This document shows positions 2,766 through 35,864 of a stretch of DNA of 48,262 nt, in pieces. Source of the DNA: Candidatus Roizmanbacteria bacterium RIFCSPHIGHO2_02_FULL_37_13b (lineage in GTDB: Bacteria; Patescibacteriota; Microgenomatia; UBA1406; HO2-37-13b); NCBI GenBank assembly GCA_001789395.1, contig MFZK01000022.1:81152-129413 (forward strand), read 5' to 3'. A program made the position numbers and the translations under genes. The notes below the pieces were generated by a model that saw only the letters and a list, made by a program, of their open reading frames with translations, was not told the origin of the DNA and made no database searches. The number at the start of each line of letters is the position of its first letter. The stretch's first letter is position 1.

Positions 2766-3608
2766 ATGCAATCCCAAGATCTTCGGGGACTTATTAATGC
2801 TTTTATTGAAAATTTAAAGCAATCAGGCAAATCTAACTTCACAATTATTGCTTACAAAAAAGATTTGGAGCAATTTATAGGCTTTTTGGTATCAGAACAA
2901 ATTAACGATGTTAAAAGCGTGACTAAAGAGCATGTCAGCGGCTTTATCCAGAAGCTTATCACTGAAAACTATACAAAAAAGTCAGCCTCAAGAAAATTAA
3001 ATTCGATCCGGACTTTTTTCCGATTTTTAAAACAAGAGGAAGTAATAAGCCAAAATCCTTCTCTTGAGGTTTCCCATCCAAAATACACCCAAAGTCCTCC
3101 TCGGATTTTATCTAAGCTGGAATATCGGGGACTGCGGGATTTTGCCAAAGAAGACTCTAGAACCTATGCCATTGTTGAACTTTTACTTCAAACTGGTTTA
3201 CGGATTGGAGAGCTCGCAGCTATTAATGTCAGTGATATAAAGGACGATTCATTAATAGTCGCAAAGCGAAGTATTCCCTTAAACAAAGCTGTAAAAAAGG
3301 CTATTGATGACTATATTCAAGTTCGTCATAAAACTGAAGATGGTCATCTTTTTGTCACTAAAACCGGCCGGCCACTATTAATAAGAAATATAAGAACTAT
3401 AATTTCCCGTTGTTTCCGGGAGATTGGCATTGACAATGCCAAAGTTCAGGACTTGAGAAATACATTTATCGCCTATCAGCTGATGAGCGGTGCTTCTATT
3501 TCATATATATCTAAAATTGTAGGTCATAAACGATTATCTTCTACTGAAAAATATCTTAACCTCGTAAAAGAGGCTCCTGAGAAAAAGGATAGACTTGGAG
3601 AGCTCTGA
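2766..3608 (+). CDS. Tyrosine recombinase/integrase (XerC/XerD-like)
   Basis: Core-binding domain plus catalytic region 'LLLQTGLRIGELAAIN', 'DLRNTFIAYQLMSGASISYISKIVGHKRLSSTEKYLN'. Confidence 0.85.
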   Translation: MQSQDLRGLINAFIENLKQSGKSNFTIIAYKKDLEQFIGFLVSEQINDVKSVTKEHVSGFIQKLITENYTKKSASRKLNSIRTFFRFLKQEEVISQNPSLEVSHPKYTQSPPRILSKLEYRGLRDFAKEDSRTYAIVELLLQTGLRIGELAAINVSDIKDDSLIVAKRSIPLNKAVKKAIDDYIQVRHKTEDGHLFVTKTGRPLLIRNIRTIISRCFREIGIDNAKVQDLRNTFIAYQLMSGASISYISKIVGHKRLSSTEKYLNLVKEAPEKKDRLGEL

Positions 3609-3662
3609 TTCATGATTCATGAAGCATGAAACATGAAGCATAAAGCATAAAGCATGAAGCAA
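3607..3662. repeat. Short tandem 'CATGAARCATGAAR' type repeat
   Basis: gattcatgattcatgaagcatgaaacatgaagcataaagcataaagcatgaagc; similar units at 6974-7025, 13915-13945, 14305-14335, 32394-32428. Confidence 0.8.
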
Positions 3663-4620: not shown

Positions 4621-6975
4621 ATGGGTGATGTATTTTTTCAGCAATTATTCAACGGTTTCATATTTGCAATGCTTCTTTTTTTTGCATTCGGGTTATCAAT
4701 AACTATCACCGTCCTGTTTTTTTATTTAATTATTTTATTTTTCCGTTTAAAAAGTCGAGAAAAATTGTCTCTGGAGATGGTGACAATGGAGGTTCGAGTT
4801 CCAAAAGATAATGAGATCAAAATCGATGCTGCCGAACAATTTTTTACCTCTTTGTCAAATTTAAAGAAAGCAGGCAGATTCGCTTTTACCCAAACATCGG
4901 ATGTATTAAGCTTCGAGATGATCGGAAAACATGCTGATTTACGATTTTATTTCTCTGCTCCTTCAAAGATTAAAGATATGGTGGAAAAACAAATTTATGC
5001 TTTCTATCCCCAGGCTGATATTCGAGTTGTTGAGGAACCAAATATTTTTTCAGAGGAAGGGAAAGTGGCTTTCGTATCATTAAAGCAAGAAAATACCGTC
5101 TATCAACCGATTAAAACCTATAAAGAATTACCCACAGATCCTCTCGCCGGATTGACTTCAGCTTTGTCCAAAATGGGTGAAGGAGAAGGTGCAGCAATCC
5201 AAATTCTTCTACGGACTACATCGACAAAGTGGAAAAAACAAGGTAAATCATATATTTCATCTACTAAAAAAAAGGAGGCTTCACCTGACGAAGCTACTTT
5301 TAAGGTAGATCCAAAAGTTCTGGAGCGAATTGATGAAAAAACTCAACGTCCGGGATTTGAAGTAGCTCTGCGAGCGGTAGTGTCTTCTAAAGATATGGAT
5401 TCGGCTGAAATGCATTTATCTAATATAAAGGCTGCTTTTTCACAATTTGCTTCCGAGCTTAACAGTTTTACTTCTAGCAGGATCTTGTTTAAAGGTGGAT
5501 TTATGATCAATTTTATCTATAGATTCTTTCCCATATTTGAACTGCCTTTTTTTAAGTCATCGTCAATCCTATCTTCAGATGAACTGGCAACCATTTTTCA
5601 TTTTCCAAATAAAACAGTTGAGACACCTCATATCAGATGGTTAAAAGCCAAGACTGCGCCCGTCCCTCCTGAGATACCCCGAGAAGAAGGTACGTTTATA
5701 GGGGCTGGTCATTACCGGGGAGTAAAACGGAAAGTCAATATCGGAATTGAAGACCGCAGGCGACATATATATATCATTGGAAAAACAGGTACTGGTAAAT
5801 CAGAATTACTTCACGATATGGCGACTCAAGACATAAAAGCAGGATTTGGAGTCTGTGTCATTGATCCGCATGGAGATTTGATTGACAATATCCTTAAATA
5901 TATTCCACCTGAAAGAGCAGAAGATGTAATCTATTTTGATCCTTCAGATTACGATCGACCTTTGGGGATAAATTTCTTTGAAGCGCAAGATGAGCAGCAA
6001 AAACATTTAATCTCAACTTCAATAATAAATTTAATGTATAAGCTTTACGATCCACAAAGGACTGGGATAATCGGCCCGAGATTTGAACATGCAGTTAGAA
6101 ATGCAATGTTGTCGGTGATGTATGAAGAAGGAGCTACTTTTATTGAAGTAATGAGAATTCTGCAGGATCCAAAATATGTCAATGAACTGTTGCCTAAAAT
6201 TCAAGACCCGATTATAAGACGATACTGGACTGATCAGATCGCTCAGACATCAGATTTCCACAAGTCGGAGGTTTTAGATTATATCGTCTCTAAATTTGGT
6301 CGATTTGTCACTAATAAAGCAATGAGAAATATCGTCGGGCAATCAAAATCATCATTTGATTTCCGGGATATCATGGACAATGGAAAGATATTACTTATCA
6401 ATCTGTCAAAAGGAAAAATCGGAGAAGAAAATTCAAATTTTTTGGGATTGGTTATGATCCCAAAAATATTAATTGCAGCGATGAGTCGACAGGATATTCC
6501 TGAGGATAAGCGACGTGATTTTTATCTATATGTCGACGAGTTTCAAAATTTTGCTACCCCGGATTTTGCCGTTATTTTATCTGAGGCGAGAAAGTACCAC
6601 CTTAATTTAACTGTCGCCAATCAATTCATCGGCCAAGTAGACGAAGAGGTAAAAAATGCTGTCTTTGGTAATGTAGGAACTCTTATCTGTTTCCGCGTTG
6701 GAGTAACTGATGCTTCATATTTGGCCCATGAGTTTCAACCGGTTTTTGGTGAGACGGATTTAATTAATATTGATCGATTTCATGCTTACATGAAAACAAT
6801 TGTTGATAATGAACCTGTAGCTCCCTTTTCTGTTGATATGACCAAAGACATAAAAAAAATCAAGTCTCAGGCGAATGAAAAAATATCACAAGCTATAGTT
6901 CAGCTTTCTAGACTTAAATTCGGTAAGCCAAAAGAGCTGGTTGAAGCAGAGATTGCTCAGCGGGCGAGACTATGA
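4621..6975 (+). CDS. VirD4/TraG/HerA-like type IV secretion coupling ATPase
   Basis: N-terminal TM; Walker A 'IIGKTGTGKSELL'; 'DPHGDLIDNIL'; Walker B-like 'FYLYVDEFQNF'. Confidence 0.85.
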   Translation: MGDVFFQQLFNGFIFAMLLFFAFGLSITITVLFFYLIILFFRLKSREKLSLEMVTMEVRVPKDNEIKIDAAEQFFTSLSNLKKAGRFAFTQTSDVLSFEMIGKHADLRFYFSAPSKIKDMVEKQIYAFYPQADIRVVEEPNIFSEEGKVAFVSLKQENTVYQPIKTYKELPTDPLAGLTSALSKMGEGEGAAIQILLRTTSTKWKKQGKSYISSTKKKEASPDEATFKVDPKVLERIDEKTQRPGFEVALRAVVSSKDMDSAEMHLSNIKAAFSQFASELNSFTSSRILFKGGFMINFIYRFFPIFELPFFKSSSILSSDELATIFHFPNKTVETPHIRWLKAKTAPVPPEIPREEGTFIGAGHYRGVKRKVNIGIEDRRRHIYIIGKTGTGKSELLHDMATQDIKAGFGVCVIDPHGDLIDNILKYIPPERAEDVIYFDPSDYDRPLGINFFEAQDEQQKHLISTSIINLMYKLYDPQRTGIIGPRFEHAVRNAMLSVMYEEGATFIEVMRILQDPKYVNELLPKIQDPIIRRYWTDQIAQTSDFHKSEVLDYIVSKFGRFVTNKAMRNIVGQSKSSFDFRDIMDNGKILLINLSKGKIGEENSNFLGLVMIPKILIAAMSRQDIPEDKRRDFYLYVDEFQNFATPDFAVILSEARKYHLNLTVANQFIGQVDEEVKNAVFGNVGTLICFRVGVTDASYLAHEFQPVFGETDLINIDRFHAYMKTIVDNEPVAPFSVDMTKDIKKIKSQANEKISQAIVQLSRLKFGKPKELVEAEIAQRARL

Positions 6976-7059
6976 TCATGGATCATGAAACTTGAAACAT
7001 GAAGCATGGAGTATGAAACATGAAATACAGGTGATGTAATATTTGTTATTTATATAGAT

Positions 7060-13343: not shown

Positions 13344-13916
13344 TTAAGTTTCGCTGTCTTTTTTTATTTTTTCAACAACTTGTTGTAAATGTGAAAATTT
13401 ATACTGGTGGGGAATAAAATGATCTAGTAGGTTATAAATCCAGTAGATTTTTACATCACTTTTTTTTGTTAAGTGGGAAACTATGTCATAATTATCCTCG
13501 ACAAAGATGTCCAAATTTAATTTTTTAATCATATTTTCTTTAAAAAGATGAGGTTGTTCATCCATTTTATTAAAATGGATTCCGGTAAAATGTCCGACTA
13601 GTTTTAATTTATTCAACCACCATTTCAAGTCTGATTCTAAAAAACTATAGCGCCCGGAGATGAGGTAGGCTTCAATTTTACCAGATGAGACCAATTTCTT
13701 AATTTCATCTAGTCCTGAAGCAGGGAAGATGCTAGACCAGTGCAATATCCTCCAAATAATTTTTTCTGCTCTTGATTTTGGAGTATAAAACTTGATTTCA
13801 CTTTTATGAGTCAGTATTTTTTTAATCAGTGTAACTGGCATTCTGGCTACTCTGGCAGGATTGTAAAGTAGGACGCCGTCAAGATCGAAACCCACTTTAA
13901 TTGGTTTATTTATCAT
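13344..13916 (-). CDS. HAD-like hydrolase
   Basis: 'VGFDLDGVLLYNPARVARMP', 'YLISGRYSF', 'IFVEDNYDIVSHL'. Confidence 0.7.
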   Translation of the reverse strand: MINKPIKVGFDLDGVLLYNPARVARMPVTLIKKILTHKSEIKFYTPKSRAEKIIWRILHWSSIFPASGLDEIKKLVSSGKIEAYLISGRYSFLESDLKWWLNKLKLVGHFTGIHFNKMDEQPHLFKENMIKKLNLDIFVEDNYDIVSHLTKKSDVKIYWIYNLLDHFIPHQYKFSHLQQVVEKIKKDSET

Positions 13917-13952
13917 GAAACCTGTAACATGAAACTTGAAACATAAAGACTA

Positions 13953-14312
13953 TTATAATTTACAAATTATACCCCAGAGCATTGCTCCAATTTCATTATT
14001 TATCGATAATGCTCTTTTGTATTCAGTCTCTGTTAGATACTTTTCTATAAAGCAAAAATGTAGTAAGTATTTAGACTCTTTTAAAGATCCATAAGATATC
14101 TCAAGAAAATTTTTATGAACTTTGCTCTTTCCTCGTGCATATCCTTCAATATAATTAAGGATAACTGAAAGTGAAGAACGTCTAAGTTGGGAAGTTACAC
14201 CATATAGCTCCTCCTTTGGAAATAATCTTGTTAATTTATATATCAGATGAACATATTGATCCAATTTCTCTTTAAGTAATTCATGATATGTTTTAGCGTT
14301 GGGATGTTTCAT
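13953..14312 (-). CDS. Four helix bundle (S23/IVS-type) protein
   Basis: 'LIYKLTRLFPKEELYGVTSQLRRSSLSVILNYIEGYARGKSKVHKNFLEISYGSLKESKYLL' is characteristic. Confidence 0.85.
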   Translation of the reverse strand: MKHPNAKTYHELLKEKLDQYVHLIYKLTRLFPKEELYGVTSQLRRSSLSVILNYIEGYARGKSKVHKNFLEISYGSLKESKYLLHFCFIEKYLTETEYKRALSINNEIGAMLWGIICKL

Positions 14313-14329
14313 GTTTCAAGTTTTAAGTT

Positions 14330-16174
14330 TCATATGCGCTTAAGCGTCTCGATTCCCAGCAAATACAGGCCGTTTTTAAGAATTTGGGCTGTCGCGGAAG
14401 TTAAGTTCAACCGGAAATTGCGCTGATCTTCTTCTGCTTTTAGAATCGGACATTTTTCATAGAAACTACTAAATTTTTGAGCCAGGTCATAAAGATAGGT
14501 GCAAACAAGGTGAGGTGCGTATTTTGAACTAGCGTCTGTGATTGCTTCAGGAAAGCGGAAGAAGGAGCGGAGTAAAGATAATTCTTCAAGTTGTAATTTA
14601 TTGAGACTAGTTGAGATTTGTTGAGATTGCTTCGTCGTTTCACTCCTCGCAATGACAGATTGACAGCGGGCATAAGTGTAGAGAAGATAAGGACCTGAAT
14701 TGCCGGAGGTAGAAATGGACTCTTTCAGATCAAATGCGATGTTTTTTCTTGCTTCCGATTTAAGAAAAGAATATTTTATTGCTGCTTGAGTGACGGTATC
14801 GGCGATATCACCTTTGTTCTCTGCTTGTGTCGTGCTTTCCATAATATGTGTTATCTCTGCTTTAACCAGCGAGATTAAGTCAAAAGCAGAAATGATATTC
14901 CCCGATCGGGATGACATCTTGCCGGTTTTCAAATCGATCATACCAAAACCAATATGGTGAACTTTCCCTTTTAACTTCGGTAGAATTTGATCAATCGCTT
15001 GTATAACAACTTTAAAATAGTCGTTTTGCTCAGAAGCTGTGGTGATAATTACATTGTCGTAAGGCCAATCTTGGTATTTGAGATATTGATTACCAATATC
15101 CTTAGCTTCATAAGTCGGATTACCATCTTTTGTAATAAATACACGGGTGTGCAATCCATATTTTTCACCTCTAAATATAATGGCGGCATCACTTTTTTCA
15201 AATATTTTTCCGATACCGTTTTCAACGATTTTTTTGCCAATTGGACCGGTATCTGATTCAAAATAGTGTTTATCGTAATTTATCCCTAAATGTTTTTCAA
15301 ACAGATCATAATAATCAAGACTCCACTGTCGTGTCTTTTGCCAAAGTTCCATCACCTCAGGATCTTTTTTATAGATCTTTTGGTTTAATTCATCAATTTC
15401 TGCTTTTGCTACGGGGTTTTCCGTATATTGTTTTGATCCTTCCTGATAGCACTTTTGTAAAAATAAAATTTTATCTGATAAATTTACACTACCCTTCGAC
15501 TCTTCCTCGACTAACGCTCGGAATCGCTCAGGATCACCAAATGCATATTTTTGAATTGCATACATGCATTTGGCGACATGCAGTCCTACATCTCCCTGAT
15601 AGTTGCATCGGAAAATTGAACTACCTGATATTTCAAATAAACGCGCCAGGCTTTCACCATAGATATAGGAAAACAGATGGCCGACATGGGGAAGCTTATG
15701 GGTATTGGGCTGGCCGTATTCAAGGTGAATACGTTTGGGAGTCTTGCCCGTTATTCTGCCATAATCTGCCTTTTGCTCAATAATTTTCTCCATTTCTTCT
15801 GTCAGAACTGCAGGATTAAGATATAAATTAATGAAATTGTCTTTTTGTTCGACTTTGGAAAAGAGGTTGTTAGCTAAGAGTTGTTCTATTAACCCCCGAC
15901 GTTCTCCCGTCTCCCGACGTAAAGTCGGGATCCTCCTCAACGTCGGGGGTTGGGGAGTTGAAACGTTTCGCGTCACTTCGTTTTTCCTCAACGTCGGGGG
16001 TTTTAGAGACGGTTTCATAAACAGAGCATAATCACCAAAATCCGAATTTTTTGGAGTAAGAAGCGTAAAATCATCAGATTTTAAGAGGTGAGCAATTGCA
16101 GATTTAACTTGATCTTTAAGTCCTTCGCTTTGCTCAGGACCTTCGATCCTTTGTTTAGTTGGGATCTTCGGCAT
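14330..16174 (-). CDS. argS: Arginyl-tRNA synthetase with several repeat-encoded in-frame insertions
   Basis: 'EYGQPNTHKLPHVGHLFSYIYGESLARLFEISG' HIGH-type region, 'KMSSRSGNIISAFDL' KMSKS-type motif, C-terminal DALR-like domain. Confidence 0.9.
   Translation of the reverse strand: MPKIPTKQRIEGPEQSEGLKDQVKSAIAHLLKSDDFTLLTPKNSDFGDYALFMKPSLKPPTLRKNEVTRNVSTPQPPTLRRIPTLRRETGERRGLIEQLLANNLFSKVEQKDNFINLYLNPAVLTEEMEKIIEQKADYGRITGKTPKRIHLEYGQPNTHKLPHVGHLFSYIYGESLARLFEISGSSIFRCNYQGDVGLHVAKCMYAIQKYAFGDPERFRALVEEESKGSVNLSDKILFLQKCYQEGSKQYTENPVAKAEIDELNQKIYKKDPEVMELWQKTRQWSLDYYDLFEKHLGINYDKHYFESDTGPIGKKIVENGIGKIFEKSDAAIIFRGEKYGLHTRVFITKDGNPTYEAKDIGNQYLKYQDWPYDNVIITTASEQNDYFKVVIQAIDQILPKLKGKVHHIGFGMIDLKTGKMSSRSGNIISAFDLISLVKAEITHIMESTTQAENKGDIADTVTQAAIKYSFLKSEARKNIAFDLKESISTSGNSGPYLLYTYARCQSVIARSETTKQSQQISTSLNKLQLEELSLLRSFFRFPEAITDASSKYAPHLVCTYLYDLAQKFSSFYEKCPILKAEEDQRNFRLNLTSATAQILKNGLYLLGIETLKRI
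14623..14657. repeat. 'GAGATTGCTTCGTCGTTTC..TCGCAATGACA' interspersed repeat (inside argS)
   Basis: Same sequence at 28113-28147 and a variant at 30628-30656. Confidence 0.85.
15891..16006. repeat. Composite palindromic repeat of the 'AACCCCCGASGTT' family inside argS
   Basis: AACCCCCGACGTT...CCCGACGTAAAGTCGGG...AACGTCGGGGGTT (15891-15954) plus extra half-arm CAACGTCGGGGGTT (15989-16002); reading frame stays open. Confidence 0.85.
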
Positions 16175-16178
16175 GAAG
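16114..16178. repeat. ~65-bp repeat copy A (contains the annotated argS start codon)
   Basis: ctttaagtccttcgctttgctcaggaccttcgatcctttgtttagttgggatcttcggcatgaag; copy B at 16202-16267. Confidence 0.85.
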
Positions 16179-16201
16179 ATATTGTATCATGAAACCTGAA
16201 A

Positions 16202-16267
16202 CTTTAAGTCCTTCGCTTTGCTCAGGACCTTCGATCCTTTATTTTGGTCGGGATCTTCGGCATGAAG
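16202..16267. repeat. ~65-bp repeat copy B
   Basis: Near-identical direct copy of 16114-16178. Confidence 0.85.
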
Positions 16268-16282
16268 CATAAAACTACAATC

Positions 16283-17233
16283 TTAGAAGCTAGTTATAAA
16301 GAAGTCGGCAGGCAACTGTGGATAAGATTGGAATAATTTAATTTTTTTTGAGACGTTAGTTTGGGTCGTCGTCGCAGTGGAAATTATGGTTTTGCCTTGG
16401 GTCGGCCAATTTTCACTGCCGTCACCGGTTGAGTTTATCACTTGAAGTCTAATTCCAGTAAATTCGCTACTTGGCGCAATAAGTCTGATAAAAAGCAGAT
16501 GACTTGGCAGAGCGCTAAGATCAATAATATCATCATAGTTTATCTTGTCAGTGGTACCTTCAATTACTTGGGGATCGCAATTCTTCAACTCAATTACTTT
16601 TCGAGTGGATATTTTATTTTCTGTCGTCGTAGCATTGACAAAGGTCAATTCAAGTGCATGTTTTTTTGTTTCGGTGCAGAAACTTGCTTCATCGTCAATA
16701 TGTATTTTAAGATTTCCTGAAAATGGCTCATCGAAAACACCTTGAGAATCAGGATTTCCAGGATCGGCCGGGGTAAATCCGGAAAGATAAAATGTTAGCT
16801 GTTTATCCTTTTTAAGCTCCGGAGCCTTGTAGGATGGAGCATCAGTAGTTATAATTTCTGCTTGACCAGAAATGCCAGCATCTTCTCCAAGCACAGTACT
16901 TAAAGCAATAGATCCTGATTGAAGTTGAAGTGCCGCTTCGAGTCCGGCCTCAGCAGCTGCAAATGCACGTTTGGAATCTTCCTCGAGCTTTGAGACGCGA
17001 GTCTCTTGGGTTGTGACTTTGGAGACAGATAAGCCAATGGTTAAAAGCACGGTCGATATTAAAACTATGACCAAAAGTATTTGACCTGAAGCATCAAGTT
17101 GATTTTCAACTGGGGCAGATTCTGTCACGACTTTCCCTCCCGCCAGTGCTCGACTTTGTCTGCGCGCTGTCGGGAGGCCCTTCCAGTCGTGCCACCTGCT
17201 GTTTTTAAAGATGTTTTTGACTATTTGTATCAT
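16283..17233 (-). CDS. PilX-like / pilus-assembly-associated membrane protein
   Basis: 'ASGQILLVIVLISTVLLTIGLSVSKVTTQETRVSKLEEDSKRAFAAAEAGLEAAL' typical N-terminal TM plus AAEAGLE; start overlaps the upstream stop (ATGA). Confidence 0.6.
   Translation of the reverse strand: MIQIVKNIFKNSRWHDWKGLPTARRQSRALAGGKVVTESAPVENQLDASGQILLVIVLISTVLLTIGLSVSKVTTQETRVSKLEEDSKRAFAAAEAGLEAALQLQSGSIALSTVLGEDAGISGQAEIITTDAPSYKAPELKKDKQLTFYLSGFTPADPGNPDSQGVFDEPFSGNLKIHIDDEASFCTETKKHALELTFVNATTTENKISTRKVIELKNCDPQVIEGTTDKINYDDIIDLSALPSHLLFIRLIAPSSEFTGIRLQVINSTGDGSENWPTQGKTIISTATTTQTNVSKKIKLFQSYPQLPADFFITSF
17126..17200. repeat. 75-bp palindromic element copy 1 (in the 5' coding part of the PilX-like gene)
   Basis: CACGACTttccCTCCCG...CGGGAGgcccttccAGTCGTGCCACCTGCT; copy 2 at 26926-27000. 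Confidence 0.85.
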
Positions 17234-19304: not shown

Positions 19305-19380
19305 TGTCATGCTGAATTCATTTCAGCATCTCGCAACGAGCATAAGCGAGCGGAGATCCTGAAACAAGTTCAGGATGACA
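19305..19380. repeat. REP-like multi-hairpin element (TGTCATGCTGAA...TTCAGGATGACA)
   Basis: Closing TGTCAT/ATGACA, hairpins GCTGAA/TTCAGC, CTCGC/GCGAG, CCTGAA/TTCAGG; related copy at 35624-35691. Confidence 0.85.
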
Positions 19381-26832: not shown

Positions 26833-26925
26833 TATTTTTATTCTAGCACTTTTTTAAATATTTTCGAATATTGCAATTTAAGCAGATTCTGCCAAGTCAA
26901 ACTTGGTTGTCGCGTTAGACGCGAT

Positions 26926-27000
26926 CACGACTTTCCCTCCCGTCAGTGCTCGACTATATCTTTGCGCTGTAGGGAGGCCCTTCCAGTCGTGCCACCTGCT
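26926..27000. repeat. 75-bp palindromic element copy 2 (overlaps the dprA 3' end)
   Basis: Near-identical to 17126-17200. Confidence 0.85.
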
Positions 27001-28097
27001 ATTTCCAATGTTATTAGATAGTAATTGCCTTCATACGATTTGCCGATTAATCCATCAATCTCTAAATTAGTGATTTGGTCAAGAATTTGGTTTACGGGAA
27101 CGCCAAAAAGTCGACTCAAGTCGTCAGCAGACTGCGTTTCCTCTGCCAGTTTAATAACGATTTTTTTCGACAAATCATTTAATCCCTCAATAATTGACTT
27201 GATGTCACTACTGGATCTATTAATGTTATATTCTTCTAAAATATCATCGACGCATGTCACCATTTTAGCGCCGTTTTTTATCAACAAGTTTGGAGCAAAG
27301 GATAAATTCGAGGTAATTGGAGAAGGCGGAGCAAAGACATCGCGACCTTGCTGGCCGGCAAATTTAGCAGTGATTAAAGCTCCGGAATTAATTGCTCCCT
27401 CAACGACCAAGACGCCACAACTTAGTCCTGATATAAGTCGGTTTCTAGCGACAAATAGTCCTTTAAGTACTGTCAAACCCGGCGGGAATTCACTAATGAT
27501 TAATCCTTGAGACTTGATGATATTTTGATACAAATTGTAATTTGATGGTGGATAAACTATATCAACTCCACAACCCAAAACAGCAATCGTCTTCCCTTTA
27601 CAATCTATTGTGGCTTGATGGGCGGAGCTATCTATTCCCAAGGCCATTCCCGATACAATCGTAAATCCGGCATTTGATAGTCCGGTTGTAAATAGGCGAG
27701 TGATATTTAACCCATAGGAGCTGGCTTTACGAGTACCGACAATAGCAAAATTTTTCTCACTCGGTTGTTCGATCAATTTTTTGTTACCGACTAAATACAA
27801 ACAAATAGGTGTATCTTCAATATTGACTAGTTGTTTTGGATATGCTTTATCATCTAAACAGAGAATGTGTATATTTTTTTTATACAGTTTGTCAACAATA
27901 CTATGGGTATCGAAAGTGTTACGGAATGCAACAAATTTTTGTGTTAACGGTTCACCGATAATTTTTTTTAAATCATTATAAGAAGCGTTATAAGCAGTCT
28001 TGATTGAAGGAAAACTAGCCTTTATTTTTTTAAAGCGGATTGGACCGATGCCTAAAAAATGGGAAAAGCCGACGTAATAGGGAAGATCAGGATTCAT
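26943..28097 (-). CDS. dprA: DNA processing protein DprA/Smf
   Basis: 'FAIVGTRKASSYGLNITRLFTTGLSNAGFTIVSGMALGIDSSAHQATI', 'VLGCGVDIVYPPSN'. Start taken at MNPDLPYY. Confidence 0.9.
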   Translation of the reverse strand: MNPDLPYYVGFSHFLGIGPIRFKKIKASFPSIKTAYNASYNDLKKIIGEPLTQKFVAFRNTFDTHSIVDKLYKKNIHILCLDDKAYPKQLVNIEDTPICLYLVGNKKLIEQPSEKNFAIVGTRKASSYGLNITRLFTTGLSNAGFTIVSGMALGIDSSAHQATIDCKGKTIAVLGCGVDIVYPPSNYNLYQNIIKSQGLIISEFPPGLTVLKGLFVARNRLISGLSCGVLVVEGAINSGALITAKFAGQQGRDVFAPPSPITSNLSFAPNLLIKNGAKMVTCVDDILEEYNINRSSSDIKSIIEGLNDLSKKIVIKLAEETQSADDLSRLFGVPVNQILDQITNLEIDGLIGKSYEGNYYLITLEIAGGTTGRASLQRKDIVEH

Positions 28098-28112: not shown

Positions 28113-28147
28113 GAGATTGCTTCGTCGTTTCATTCTTCGCAATGACA
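28113..28147. repeat. 'GAGATTGCTTCGTCGTTTC..TCGCAATGACA' interspersed repeat (dprA-metG intergenic)
   Basis: Same family as 14623-14657. Confidence 0.85.
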
Positions 28148-30385: not shown

Positions 30386-32083
30386 TTACTCTTTTCTTTC
30401 GAAATATGCTTTCAAGATTTCCTTGGCGATTGGGGCAGCGACATTAGATCCTTCTCCTGATTCTTCGACCATCACAGTGACAATAATTTCCGGATTGTCG
30501 TAGGGTGCAAAGATAGTAAACCAAGCATGGGGAAGCCTTGATTCAAGATGTGACTCGGCAGTACCAGTTTTGCAGCCTACCTGAATTGGTTGTAATTGGC
30601 TAGAATTAGTGGCGGCGTCATTTGTTTGAGATTGCTTCACTTCGTTCGCAATGACATTATTTTTCACTCTAAAGTCAAAAAATGGCCAGCCGGTACCACC
30701 GGTTAAACATGCTTGTTTCATTCCCTCGAGAATCAAATTGATATTTTTTTCAGAAACTCCAAGCGAATGGCAGCTACTTTTTTGATTTTTTAAAAGAAGT
30801 GGAGTACATAATTGCCCATGATTAACTACTGCCGCAGTTGCCATATTAACTTGAAGTGGAGTTGCCAGAAGATAACCTTGGCCAATAGATAAATTATACG
30901 TGTCCCCTAAATACCATCTTTCATGCAATATCTCTTTTTTCCAAAAATCAGATGGGATGAGACCTGGCTTATCGGAGAGTTTACTCTCGGTTTTTTTCCC
31001 GTAGCCGAACTTCTCAGCCCAATATTTAATACCAACCGGTCCTAATTTTTCGCCGACACGGTAAAAGAAAATATCATTTGATCTTCTAAGGCCCTTGATT
31101 AAATCTACCATGCCTTCGGTCTTACCGTATTTCAAAAAGTACCAATTGCCAAATTTCAATGGACCAGCTGTAATAACTCCGGTATCCTCCACAGTGAAAT
31201 TCTCATCAATTTTATTTTCTTGCAGAGCTCCGGCTGCTAGAATTAACTTAAAGACAGATCCTGGAGGATATGTGCCTTCTAAAGCCCGATTAAAAAGAGG
31301 TTTTTCTGGATCGGCCATGTATTTTTTAATGGCTTCTTGATTATTGTTTTCAAAAATCTGTGGATTAAATGATGGAAAGCTCATAAGGGCTAATATTTCT
31401 CCATTTGGTTTGGAAGCGATAATTGCTGCTTTTTTCTCCTTTAAAACAACAATACCACCGCTATTTATTATTGTTTCTGATGTTAATATTGAATAGGCTT
31501 TTTGTTGAAGATAGTTATCGATTGAAAGTTGGATTTTATGGCCGGGAATGGGATCGGTTTGTGAAATAATTTTTCTTATCTTACCTTGGGCATTGACCTC
31601 GATTAACCTTTTCCCTTTTCTACCGCGTAGATCACATTCAAAAATTTGTTCAATACCACTCTTACCAATTTTGTCATTAAGCTTTAATTTATTAGCGCAG
31701 GCATCGTTTTTTAGGTCATGGTCGTTGGCCAGTTGTCTAAAACCAACAAGATGAGAGGCTGCATCAGTCAAGGGATAAACACGTTTTATATTTATATCAT
31801 TTTCTTTTTGGGAATAAGCAATTTGGAAACCTTTGCGATCGACAATTACACCCCTTTGAGCTTCAATGGGAATTTCTTTAATTCGGTTATTTTCTGCTAA
31901 AAAACGATAATATGTTCCTTTTACAACTGTCAATTGAAACAATCTGGCTGCTAGACCGAAGAATAGGATAATTATTATATATGGCAAAATGTCATATCGA
32001 AAATGACGGTCGCGATGATATTTTCCGCTAAAAGTGATAGGTTGTGAATCGTATTTTTGGAATGGAACGATTTTTTGAGCCAT
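30386..32083 (-). CDS. mrdA: Penicillin-binding protein 2 (transpeptidase)
   Basis: 'QRGVIVDRKGFQIAYSQ', 'GTYPPGSVFKLILA', 'RRSNDIFFYRVGEKLG', 'GCKTGTAES'; contains a repeat-encoded insert before KTGT. Confidence 0.85.
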   Translation of the reverse strand: MAQKIVPFQKYDSQPITFSGKYHRDRHFRYDILPYIIIILFFGLAARLFQLTVVKGTYYRFLAENNRIKEIPIEAQRGVIVDRKGFQIAYSQKENDINIKRVYPLTDAASHLVGFRQLANDHDLKNDACANKLKLNDKIGKSGIEQIFECDLRGRKGKRLIEVNAQGKIRKIISQTDPIPGHKIQLSIDNYLQQKAYSILTSETIINSGGIVVLKEKKAAIIASKPNGEILALMSFPSFNPQIFENNNQEAIKKYMADPEKPLFNRALEGTYPPGSVFKLILAAGALQENKIDENFTVEDTGVITAGPLKFGNWYFLKYGKTEGMVDLIKGLRRSNDIFFYRVGEKLGPVGIKYWAEKFGYGKKTESKLSDKPGLIPSDFWKKEILHERWYLGDTYNLSIGQGYLLATPLQVNMATAAVVNHGQLCTPLLLKNQKSSCHSLGVSEKNINLILEGMKQACLTGGTGWPFFDFRVKNNVIANEVKQSQTNDAATNSSQLQPIQVGCKTGTAESHLESRLPHAWFTIFAPYDNPEIIVTVMVEESGEGSNVAAPIAKEILKAYFERKE

Positions 32084-32089
32084 AAAATA

Positions 32090-32806
32090 TTAAATAATTG
32101 TTTTTATTGGTTGATTTTTAATTTCTTCTTGAACAGTGGTACTTTCACCATGACCGGGAAGAATGATGGTTTTTTTCGGCAGAGACAAGATTTGTTTTAA
32201 CAACTTATATAATGCATCTTTGTTGGAATAGGAAAAATCATAGCGGCCGATGTTGTTTTTGAAAATCGTGTCACCGGAAAACATAGTTGTAACTGGTTGA
32301 AATTGATCCCCGCCTGCGGTGTGGTTAGTTGAAATTAGTTTATTTTTAAAAAAAATACAGACAGAACCAGGGGTATGGCCGGGAGTGTGTAATACATGAA
32401 ACATGAGACGTGAAACATGAAACATTTCTTGCTCGAAAAATTTTATGTTTTGAGGTAAAGGATAATTGATCTTACGTTTAAGCCAAAAAGATGCTGATTG
32501 ATTCATGGTTTTTAGTAAAAAAAGATCATCTCGGTGTATAAAATAAGGAATTATTCGATTGCTCGATTGCTCGATTGCTTTATTATTGCTTAGAATAAGT
32601 TGCAGTTCTCCGGCGGCTAGATTGTGGTCAAAATGACCATGGGTGGCTATTATTGCTCTGAGGTTTAGCTTAAGACGGAGGACTTGCTCAGCGATAAATT
32701 CAGCGCTATCTGCCGGATCAATGACTATTGCTTCCTTTGTCATCTTGTCATAAACAAGATAACAATTTGTCGAAAGTCCGCCTAAACATAAGGTATCAAT
32801 TGTCAT
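32090..32806 (-). CDS. MBL-fold hydrolase (glyoxalase II-like)
   Basis: 'IIATHGHFDHNLAAGEL', 'LHTPGHTPGSVC', 'MFSGDTIF', 'ILPGHGESTT'; three repeat-like inserts. Confidence 0.88.
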   Translation of the reverse strand: MTIDTLCLGGLSTNCYLVYDKMTKEAIVIDPADSAEFIAEQVLRLKLNLRAIIATHGHFDHNLAAGELQLILSNNKAIEQSSNRIIPYFIHRDDLFLLKTMNQSASFWLKRKINYPLPQNIKFFEQEMFHVSRLMFHVLHTPGHTPGSVCIFFKNKLISTNHTAGGDQFQPVTTMFSGDTIFKNNIGRYDFSYSNKDALYKLLKQILSLPKKTIILPGHGESTTVQEEIKNQPIKTII

Positions 32807-34666: not shown

Positions 34667-35326
34667 TTATTTATTATCAATAATTCTCTGTAGCAGCTCG
34701 AGGTGGTGGATAATGTCACTGGAAAAGTAACTTCCTGGGCAAATTGCATCTGGCAGATATTTTTGTTTCATCACAAAGGCAAGTGTTTTATCATTCATTG
34801 CTCCGTCAAGAATGATTTTGCCCCCAAATCCTAATTTGTGCAGCTCTTCAATTTTATTTAAGACCTCTGGTACAAACGGAGAGCCTTGTTGGCCGGGGTG
34901 GACGGTCATGAGTTGGACTGTGTCAAACTGCTTAATACTATCCCAATTATCAGCTACAGAATCTTCAGGATTGAGAACGAGTCCGAATTGAAAGTTTGAG
35001 GATAGAGGATAAGGGACGGCGGGTAGAACTTTAATGTGGATAAGGACACATTTTATTTTGACAACATTGGTAATCAGGTTTAATTTTTCGATTTCGGAGA
35101 CATAGTCATCGACCATTAAGTGAAATTCGAAAGTCTTTTGTTTAATTGTTCCATTATTCCATCGTTCAATTGTTGTAGCGATTTCCTCAATCTGAACGGT
35201 TTTATTTGGGACGAATTTTCCGTCGGTGATGTCGATTTGGAAATAAGAAAAAAAGGGAAGCAGAGCTTTTAGACGCTTTAATAAATCATCTGTATTTTTT
35301 TCAAGAATAGATGGATAAATTAACAT
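34667..35326 (-). CDS. rpe: Ribulose-phosphate 3-epimerase
   Basis: 'YFQIDITDGKFVPN', 'FEFHLMVDDY', 'LMTVHPGQQGSPFVPEVLNKI', 'IILDGAMN'. Confidence 0.85.
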   Translation of the reverse strand: MLIYPSILEKNTDDLLKRLKALLPFFSYFQIDITDGKFVPNKTVQIEEIATTIERWNNGTIKQKTFEFHLMVDDYVSEIEKLNLITNVVKIKCVLIHIKVLPAVPYPLSSNFQFGLVLNPEDSVADNWDSIKQFDTVQLMTVHPGQQGSPFVPEVLNKIEELHKLGFGGKIILDGAMNDKTLAFVMKQKYLPDAICPGSYFSSDIIHHLELLQRIIDNK

Positions 35327-35345: not shown

Positions 35346-35864
35346 TCAATTATCAAGTTTTTTTAGTCTTCTTAAATATTTTTCTCCGGTTTTGGGAGTA
35401 GCAGTAAGAAATGCATTAATCATTGCTTTAGCTTGTTCTTCTGTCACATAATCTGAAGGGATTGAAAGGATATTAATATGGTCGTTTTCGCGGGCATGGC
35501 TTACTTGATCGACATTAAAGCCTAAAGCACAGATAATGCCTTTAAAGCGATTGGCCATGACGGAGACGCCAACACCCGAGCCGCAGATAAGGATGCCGAG
35601 TGATTCAGACGGGGCCGTCTTAATGTCATGCCGAATTTGTTTCGGCATCTTGTTTGTATTAATGGGATCCTGAATCGAGTTCAGGATGACAGTCGACGTT
35701 GTCACATTTTGGGCCACTTTACGGGCGAAATCGGGGTAGTCATCTTGCGGATCGTAGACTAAATTGCCGCAATCTGAAATCTCATGATCTTGTTCTTTTA
35801 ACCACCCGACCAGTTTATTTTTTAGCTCAAAACCTCTGTGGTCGCTTCCGATGTAGATTTTCAT
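35346..35864 (-). CDS. rpiB: Ribose-5-phosphate isomerase B with repeat-encoded insertion
   Basis: 'IYIGSDHRGFELKNKLVGWL', 'DDYPDFARKVAQ', 'GILICGSGVGVSVMANRFKGI', 'ARENDHINILSIPSDYV'. Confidence 0.9.
   Translation of the reverse strand: MKIYIGSDHRGFELKNKLVGWLKEQDHEISDCGNLVYDPQDDYPDFARKVAQNVTTSTVILNSIQDPINTNKMPKQIRHDIKTAPSESLGILICGSGVGVSVMANRFKGIICALGFNVDQVSHARENDHINILSIPSDYVTEEQAKAMINAFLTATPKTGEKYLRRLKKLDN
35624..35691. repeat. REP-like double-hairpin element inside rpiB
   Basis: TGTCATGCCGAAtttgTTTCGGCATC...GGATCCTGAATCGAGTTCAGGATGACA; family of 19305-19380. Confidence 0.88.

Follow-up and report, generated by a model that had tools for sequence, protein, structure and literature searches.

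The 48,262-nucleotide stretch of DNA analysed here (the window: positions 81,152 to 129,413, forward strand, of contig MFZK01000022.1 in assembly GCA_001789395.1), from the uncultured Candidatus Roizmanbacteria bacterium RIFCSPHIGHO2_02_FULL_37_13b, contains a gene for ribose-5-phosphate isomerase B (rpiB; 35346-35864, minus strand, 172 aa) with an in-frame insert at residues 55-85 that includes two facing palindromes. The 172-codon open reading frame (ORF) is matched by the Pfam family LacAB_rpiB at 8.4e-37, in two separate stretches, and rpiB gave a single genomic match, being the sole RpiB found in this 1.16-Mb genome of the Microgenomates (Patescibacteria), in which no RpiA was found. An ORF that reads like ribulose-phosphate 3-epimerase (rpe; 34667-35326, minus strand) lies 19 bp downstream; this name, like ArgS, PBP2 (penicillin-binding protein 2) and DprA below, comes from reading translations by eye. 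Together with rpiB it makes up an apparent two-gene operon that has the repeat inside it.

The two palindromes have the organization of repetitive extragenic palindromic (REP) sequences. Unit 1 (35624-35649, plus strand) consists of a TGTC tag, a stem (ATGCCGAA/TTCGGCAT) enclosing the loop TTTGT, and a following C; unit 2, which is opposed to it (35666-35691, minus strand), consists of a TGTC tag, a stem (ATCCTGAA/TTCAGGAT) enclosing the loop CTCGA, and again a C. Both stems are perfect over 8 bp, both loops are 5 nt long, the units stand head-to-head, and the TGTC ends become unpaired tags when the two hairpins form. When the minus strand, which is the coding strand of rpiB, was folded as single-stranded DNA, exactly these two hairpins resulted (z = -4.38; 0 of 200 shuffles as stable); the plus strand folded as RNA preferred one long hairpin (z = -3.37). 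The first-pass annotation had reported a REP-like double hairpin within RpiB, correctly in both sequence and coordinates. Six-frame translation of the 66-bp dimer core (GTCAT...ATGAC with a 16-nt spacer, 35625-35690) gave one stop-free frame of 22 codons on each strand, and 66 nt preserves the reading frame; a length that is a multiple of three and a stop-free frame on either strand would explain how the element is translated and the gene survived. The REP-like identity is borne out as a REP-type head-to-head dimer lying in frame in rpiB, with features that fit the CGTC-tagged superfamily (Di Nocera et al. 2013, PMC3733652). The insert is very probably an intragenic head-to-head REP dimer of this TGTC/CGTC superfamily, a non-autonomous mobile repeat that is translated and tolerated as a disordered loop of RpiB.

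The same unit is found throughout the genome. TGTC precedes a perfect 8-bp stem 29 times, the highest count of all 256 tetranucleotides (median 2), and the second-ranking tag, ATAG, represents identical elements read from the opposite end. The pattern GTCATNCTGAAN5TTCAGNATC has 16 matches in the genome, 8 per strand, and its reversed control has none. A looser census yields approximately 48 convincing units, mostly intergenic and often in facing pairs, such as C3:128728/128763, C8:14801/14834, C14:147175/147209 and C22:100456/100506, which were noted without a formal count. Within the window, the intergenic dimer at 19305-19380 is, as had been claimed, a genuine relative with paired stem changes (GCTGAA/TTCAGC versus GCCGAA/TTCGGC). 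The unit pattern occurs in 43 of the 85 genomes of the order, with no control matches, and the full dimer pattern is rare in the phylum (8 of 288 genomes).

Alignments indicate that a segment encoded at 35610-35702 (minus strand; residues TTSTVILNSIQDPINTNKMPKQIRHDIKTAP) is missing from most relatives, in which only a few residues link the helix to the following strand, compared with about 30 here. The predicted protein has 172 aa versus 144-147 aa in the aligned short-loop relatives, a net gain of about 27 over relatives of 145 aa. An extra segment is therefore present as proposed, but the proposed addition of about 31 aa corresponds to residues 55-85 with flanking residues included; the dimer core itself codes for 22 aa (residues 59-80). 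The expectation that RpiB has only a few residues at this site holds for most relatives but not for two members of the same family, G008 and G001, which have hydrophilic RpiB inserts of 37 and 60 aa at the identical site (L042, L043, L044; G008 carries a second RpiB, L043). No palindromes were found in the G008 and G001 inserts, and a REP origin of these loops was rejected on that ground. A homologous insertion of about 30 aa unrelated to repeats, which had been named as evidence that would count against the REP interpretation, is thus partly matched by these palindrome-free loops, but because their sequences are unrelated to the REP-coded insert, the identification of the latter stands. They also show that this loop can accommodate inserts from more than one source. 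Alternatively, a long RpiB loop may be an older trait of this family, with the REP dimer landing later in a dispensable linker, as the G008 and G001 inserts and the few added residues outside the REP core would allow; this is rather unlikely, given that two other members of the family (G002 and G003) are short-looped and that the REP core explains 22 of the approximately 27 added residues.

Residues D8, H9, G11, K15, D31, G33, C94, G97, G99, N131 and R166, which are invariant in 55 RpiB sequences, are all kept, among them C94, which we take to be the catalytic cysteine on the strength of established knowledge of the RpiB family. An AlphaFold2 model computed from 55 sequences (predicted local distance difference test, pLDDT, 89.3 overall) retains the RpiB fold, with block means of about 93-98 in the core, including a confident helix 43-57 and strand 88-94, and of about 50-69 in the insert, which is predicted to be disordered. 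Foldseek aligned the model to solved RpiB chains with template-modelling scores (target) of about 0.87-0.92 among the top matches. The insert had been placed just before the motif GILICGSGVG, as is true of the sequence; in the model, however, strand 88-94 sets it apart from Cys94, with the insert attached at the N-terminal end and Cys94 lying at the C-terminal end of this strand. The insert is thus probably away from the active site, by about one strand length in the model. In the proposed sequence of events, a REP dimer would have landed in the RpiB loop that leads from helix 43-57 to strand 88-94, where its core would be read through in frame without killing the gene; the roughly 27 extra residues would form a disordered loop, with the catalytic cysteine at the other end of the strand, and their presence would be tolerated rather than selected for. 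We infer that RpiB with the insert is enzymatically active and that the insertion is near-neutral.

Several observations weigh against this interpretation. The REP core leaves about five of the added residues unaccounted for, as they fall outside it, a target-site duplication was not recognised by eye, and the genome set contains no member of the same genus that could show an empty site. Position 111 is occupied by Ile, where at least 90% of RpiBs have Arg, although this position is also variable (Ser, Tyr) in relatives that lack the insert.

REP-coded peptides are evidently not confined to RpiB. In the window, related TGTCATTGCGA-type repeats lie in frame in a 618-aa argS-like ORF (14624-14657, minus strand; SVIARSETTKQSQ) and in a 567-aa ORF resembling penicillin-binding protein 2 (30629-30656, minus strand; NVIANEVKQSQ), before its KTGTAE motif. 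A further TGTCATTGCGA-type copy (28114-28147) stands at the beginning of a DprA-like ORF, possibly ahead of its true start. A related repeat of this genome is also in frame in a GT2 glycosyltransferase. When the relatives were searched with the insert peptide (14 matches inspected, 10 host ORFs scanned), REP-coded peptides were found in frame within long ORFs. The clearest case is a leucyl aminopeptidase (G035), in which REP residues 253-274 fall within the catalytic domain Peptidase_M17 (184-511) and are mostly unmatched in a solved homologue; the REP is also within the matched domain of an Alg6/Alg8-like glycosyltransferase (L252). The remaining scanned host ORFs either gave no domain or carry the REP beyond the one identified. 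Two low-scoring peptide matches (L243 and L244) were rejected as REPs upon reading of the DNA. Another REP dimer lies in a 410-aa ORF of contig C8 for which neither Pfam nor NCBIfam gave a match; since the REP-coded stretch itself is all that matches in the relatives, this ORF is uninformative about an empty site.

These cases bear on two further explanations. Loss of rpiB function through the insertion, or an insert created by misassembly, is extremely unlikely: the genome is a 23-contig draft and a second isolate was not found, but the ORF is intact, the conserved residues are kept, the fold is confident, no RpiA substitute was found, and comparable in-frame examples are numerous in independent genomes. 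It is likewise very unlikely that the insert peptide or the mRNA hairpins have been co-opted, for instance in the dimer interface, in regulation of the enzyme or in expression of the ORF 19 bp downstream. The stable fold of the plus strand as RNA and the location of the REP within an apparent operon are consistent with such a role; on the other hand, similar peptides are found in unrelated proteins, the insert is predicted to be disordered, and the site holds unrelated sequence in two relatives.

The tolerated REP dimer in rpiB was presumably mobilised in trans by a Y1/HUH transposase. The genome encodes nine Y1 transposases, of which the two that were scanned are both similar to REP-associated tyrosine transposases (RAYTs; NCBIfam REP_Tyr_transpos, below the curated cut-off). 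One of the nine RAYT-like genes is within 2 kb of a unit, compared with 1.1 expected; across 59 genomes the correlation of RAYTs with repeat copy number is weak (Spearman rho 0.25, p 0.06), and in three genomes with at least five units no RAYT was detected. A linkage of RAYTs to the TGTC repeats is supported neither by unit distance, nor by flanking palindromes, nor by copy-number correlation. One RAYT-like gene (L085, C13:468-1199 of this genome, G000) is flanked by a different palindrome, CAACCTCGGAGGTTG, at C13:383 and C13:1239, of which the genome has about eight copies. The description of the superfamily (PMC3733652) reports no dedicated transposase for CGTC REPs. It is doubtful that resident RAYT-like transposases are this missing enzyme, that they still mobilise the TGTC REPs of Microgenomates, and that in-frame insertions into enzymes are a continuing source of new loops.

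Other repeats were observed in the window. A ATGAAACATGAAGC-like repeat with a 14-bp period occurs at 3608-3658, 6974-7025, 13904-13948, 14304-14333, 16178-16208 and 32392-32425, and one stretch of it is in frame within a metallo-hydrolase-like ORF (EMFHVSRLMFHVLHTPGH). A 91-nt repeat (87% identical) is found at 17125-17215 and 26925-27015, with one copy where an ORF begins and another where the DprA-like ORF ends, read in differing frames. A 50-nt direct repeat with a CCTTCGCTTTGCTCAGGA motif (16114-16163 and 16202-16251; 92% identical, 88 bp apart) lies where the ArgS-like ORF begins.

The mechanism proposed for rpiB is an ordinary one; as to its setting, no earlier report was found for Microgenomates, nor any of REPs in Patescibacteria, in a literature search whose coverage excluded most subscription journals. 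Protein-coding palindromic repeats have until now been known mainly from Rickettsia and scattered other bacteria. In one order of streamlined Patescibacteria, in-frame repeats in enzymes provide independent cases of how enzymes survive insertions of 20-30 residues, and the order offers new genomes in which to seek the missing mobiliser of CGTC-type REPs.

The CGTC superfamily, which includes the Neisseria dRS3 and the Rickettsia RPE-4 and RPE-6 (CGTC-4 and CGTC-1) elements, is characterized (PMC3733652) by an unpaired CGTC or TGTC/CCTC tag, an 8-9-bp stem that begins with complementary AT, a 4-5-nt loop and a short unpaired tail mostly fitting CCA; its members are multi-copy, dispersed and mainly head-to-head dimers, which code for 20-30 aa when intragenic. 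The rpiB units are alike in opening with a TGTC tag, in 8-bp stems that begin with AT, in 5-nt loops, and in facing each other, as do pairs that recur genome-wide among the dispersed units; their tails (CTT and CCC at RpiB, CTA, CTC or CCA elsewhere) all start with C, where the superfamily consensus is CCA. REPINs and GTAG REPs (PMC3116915, PMC2817692) are similar in that two facing palindromes make up a non-autonomous element and RAYT-like genes are present in the genome, but differ in that the tag here is TGTC, not GTAG. Rickettsia RPE-4 and RPE-6, to which the rpiB element is likened on their described features, differ in host phylum and unit sequence, but share with it short palindromes that lie in frame, with intact flanks, in genes that seem to work and belong to a small genome.
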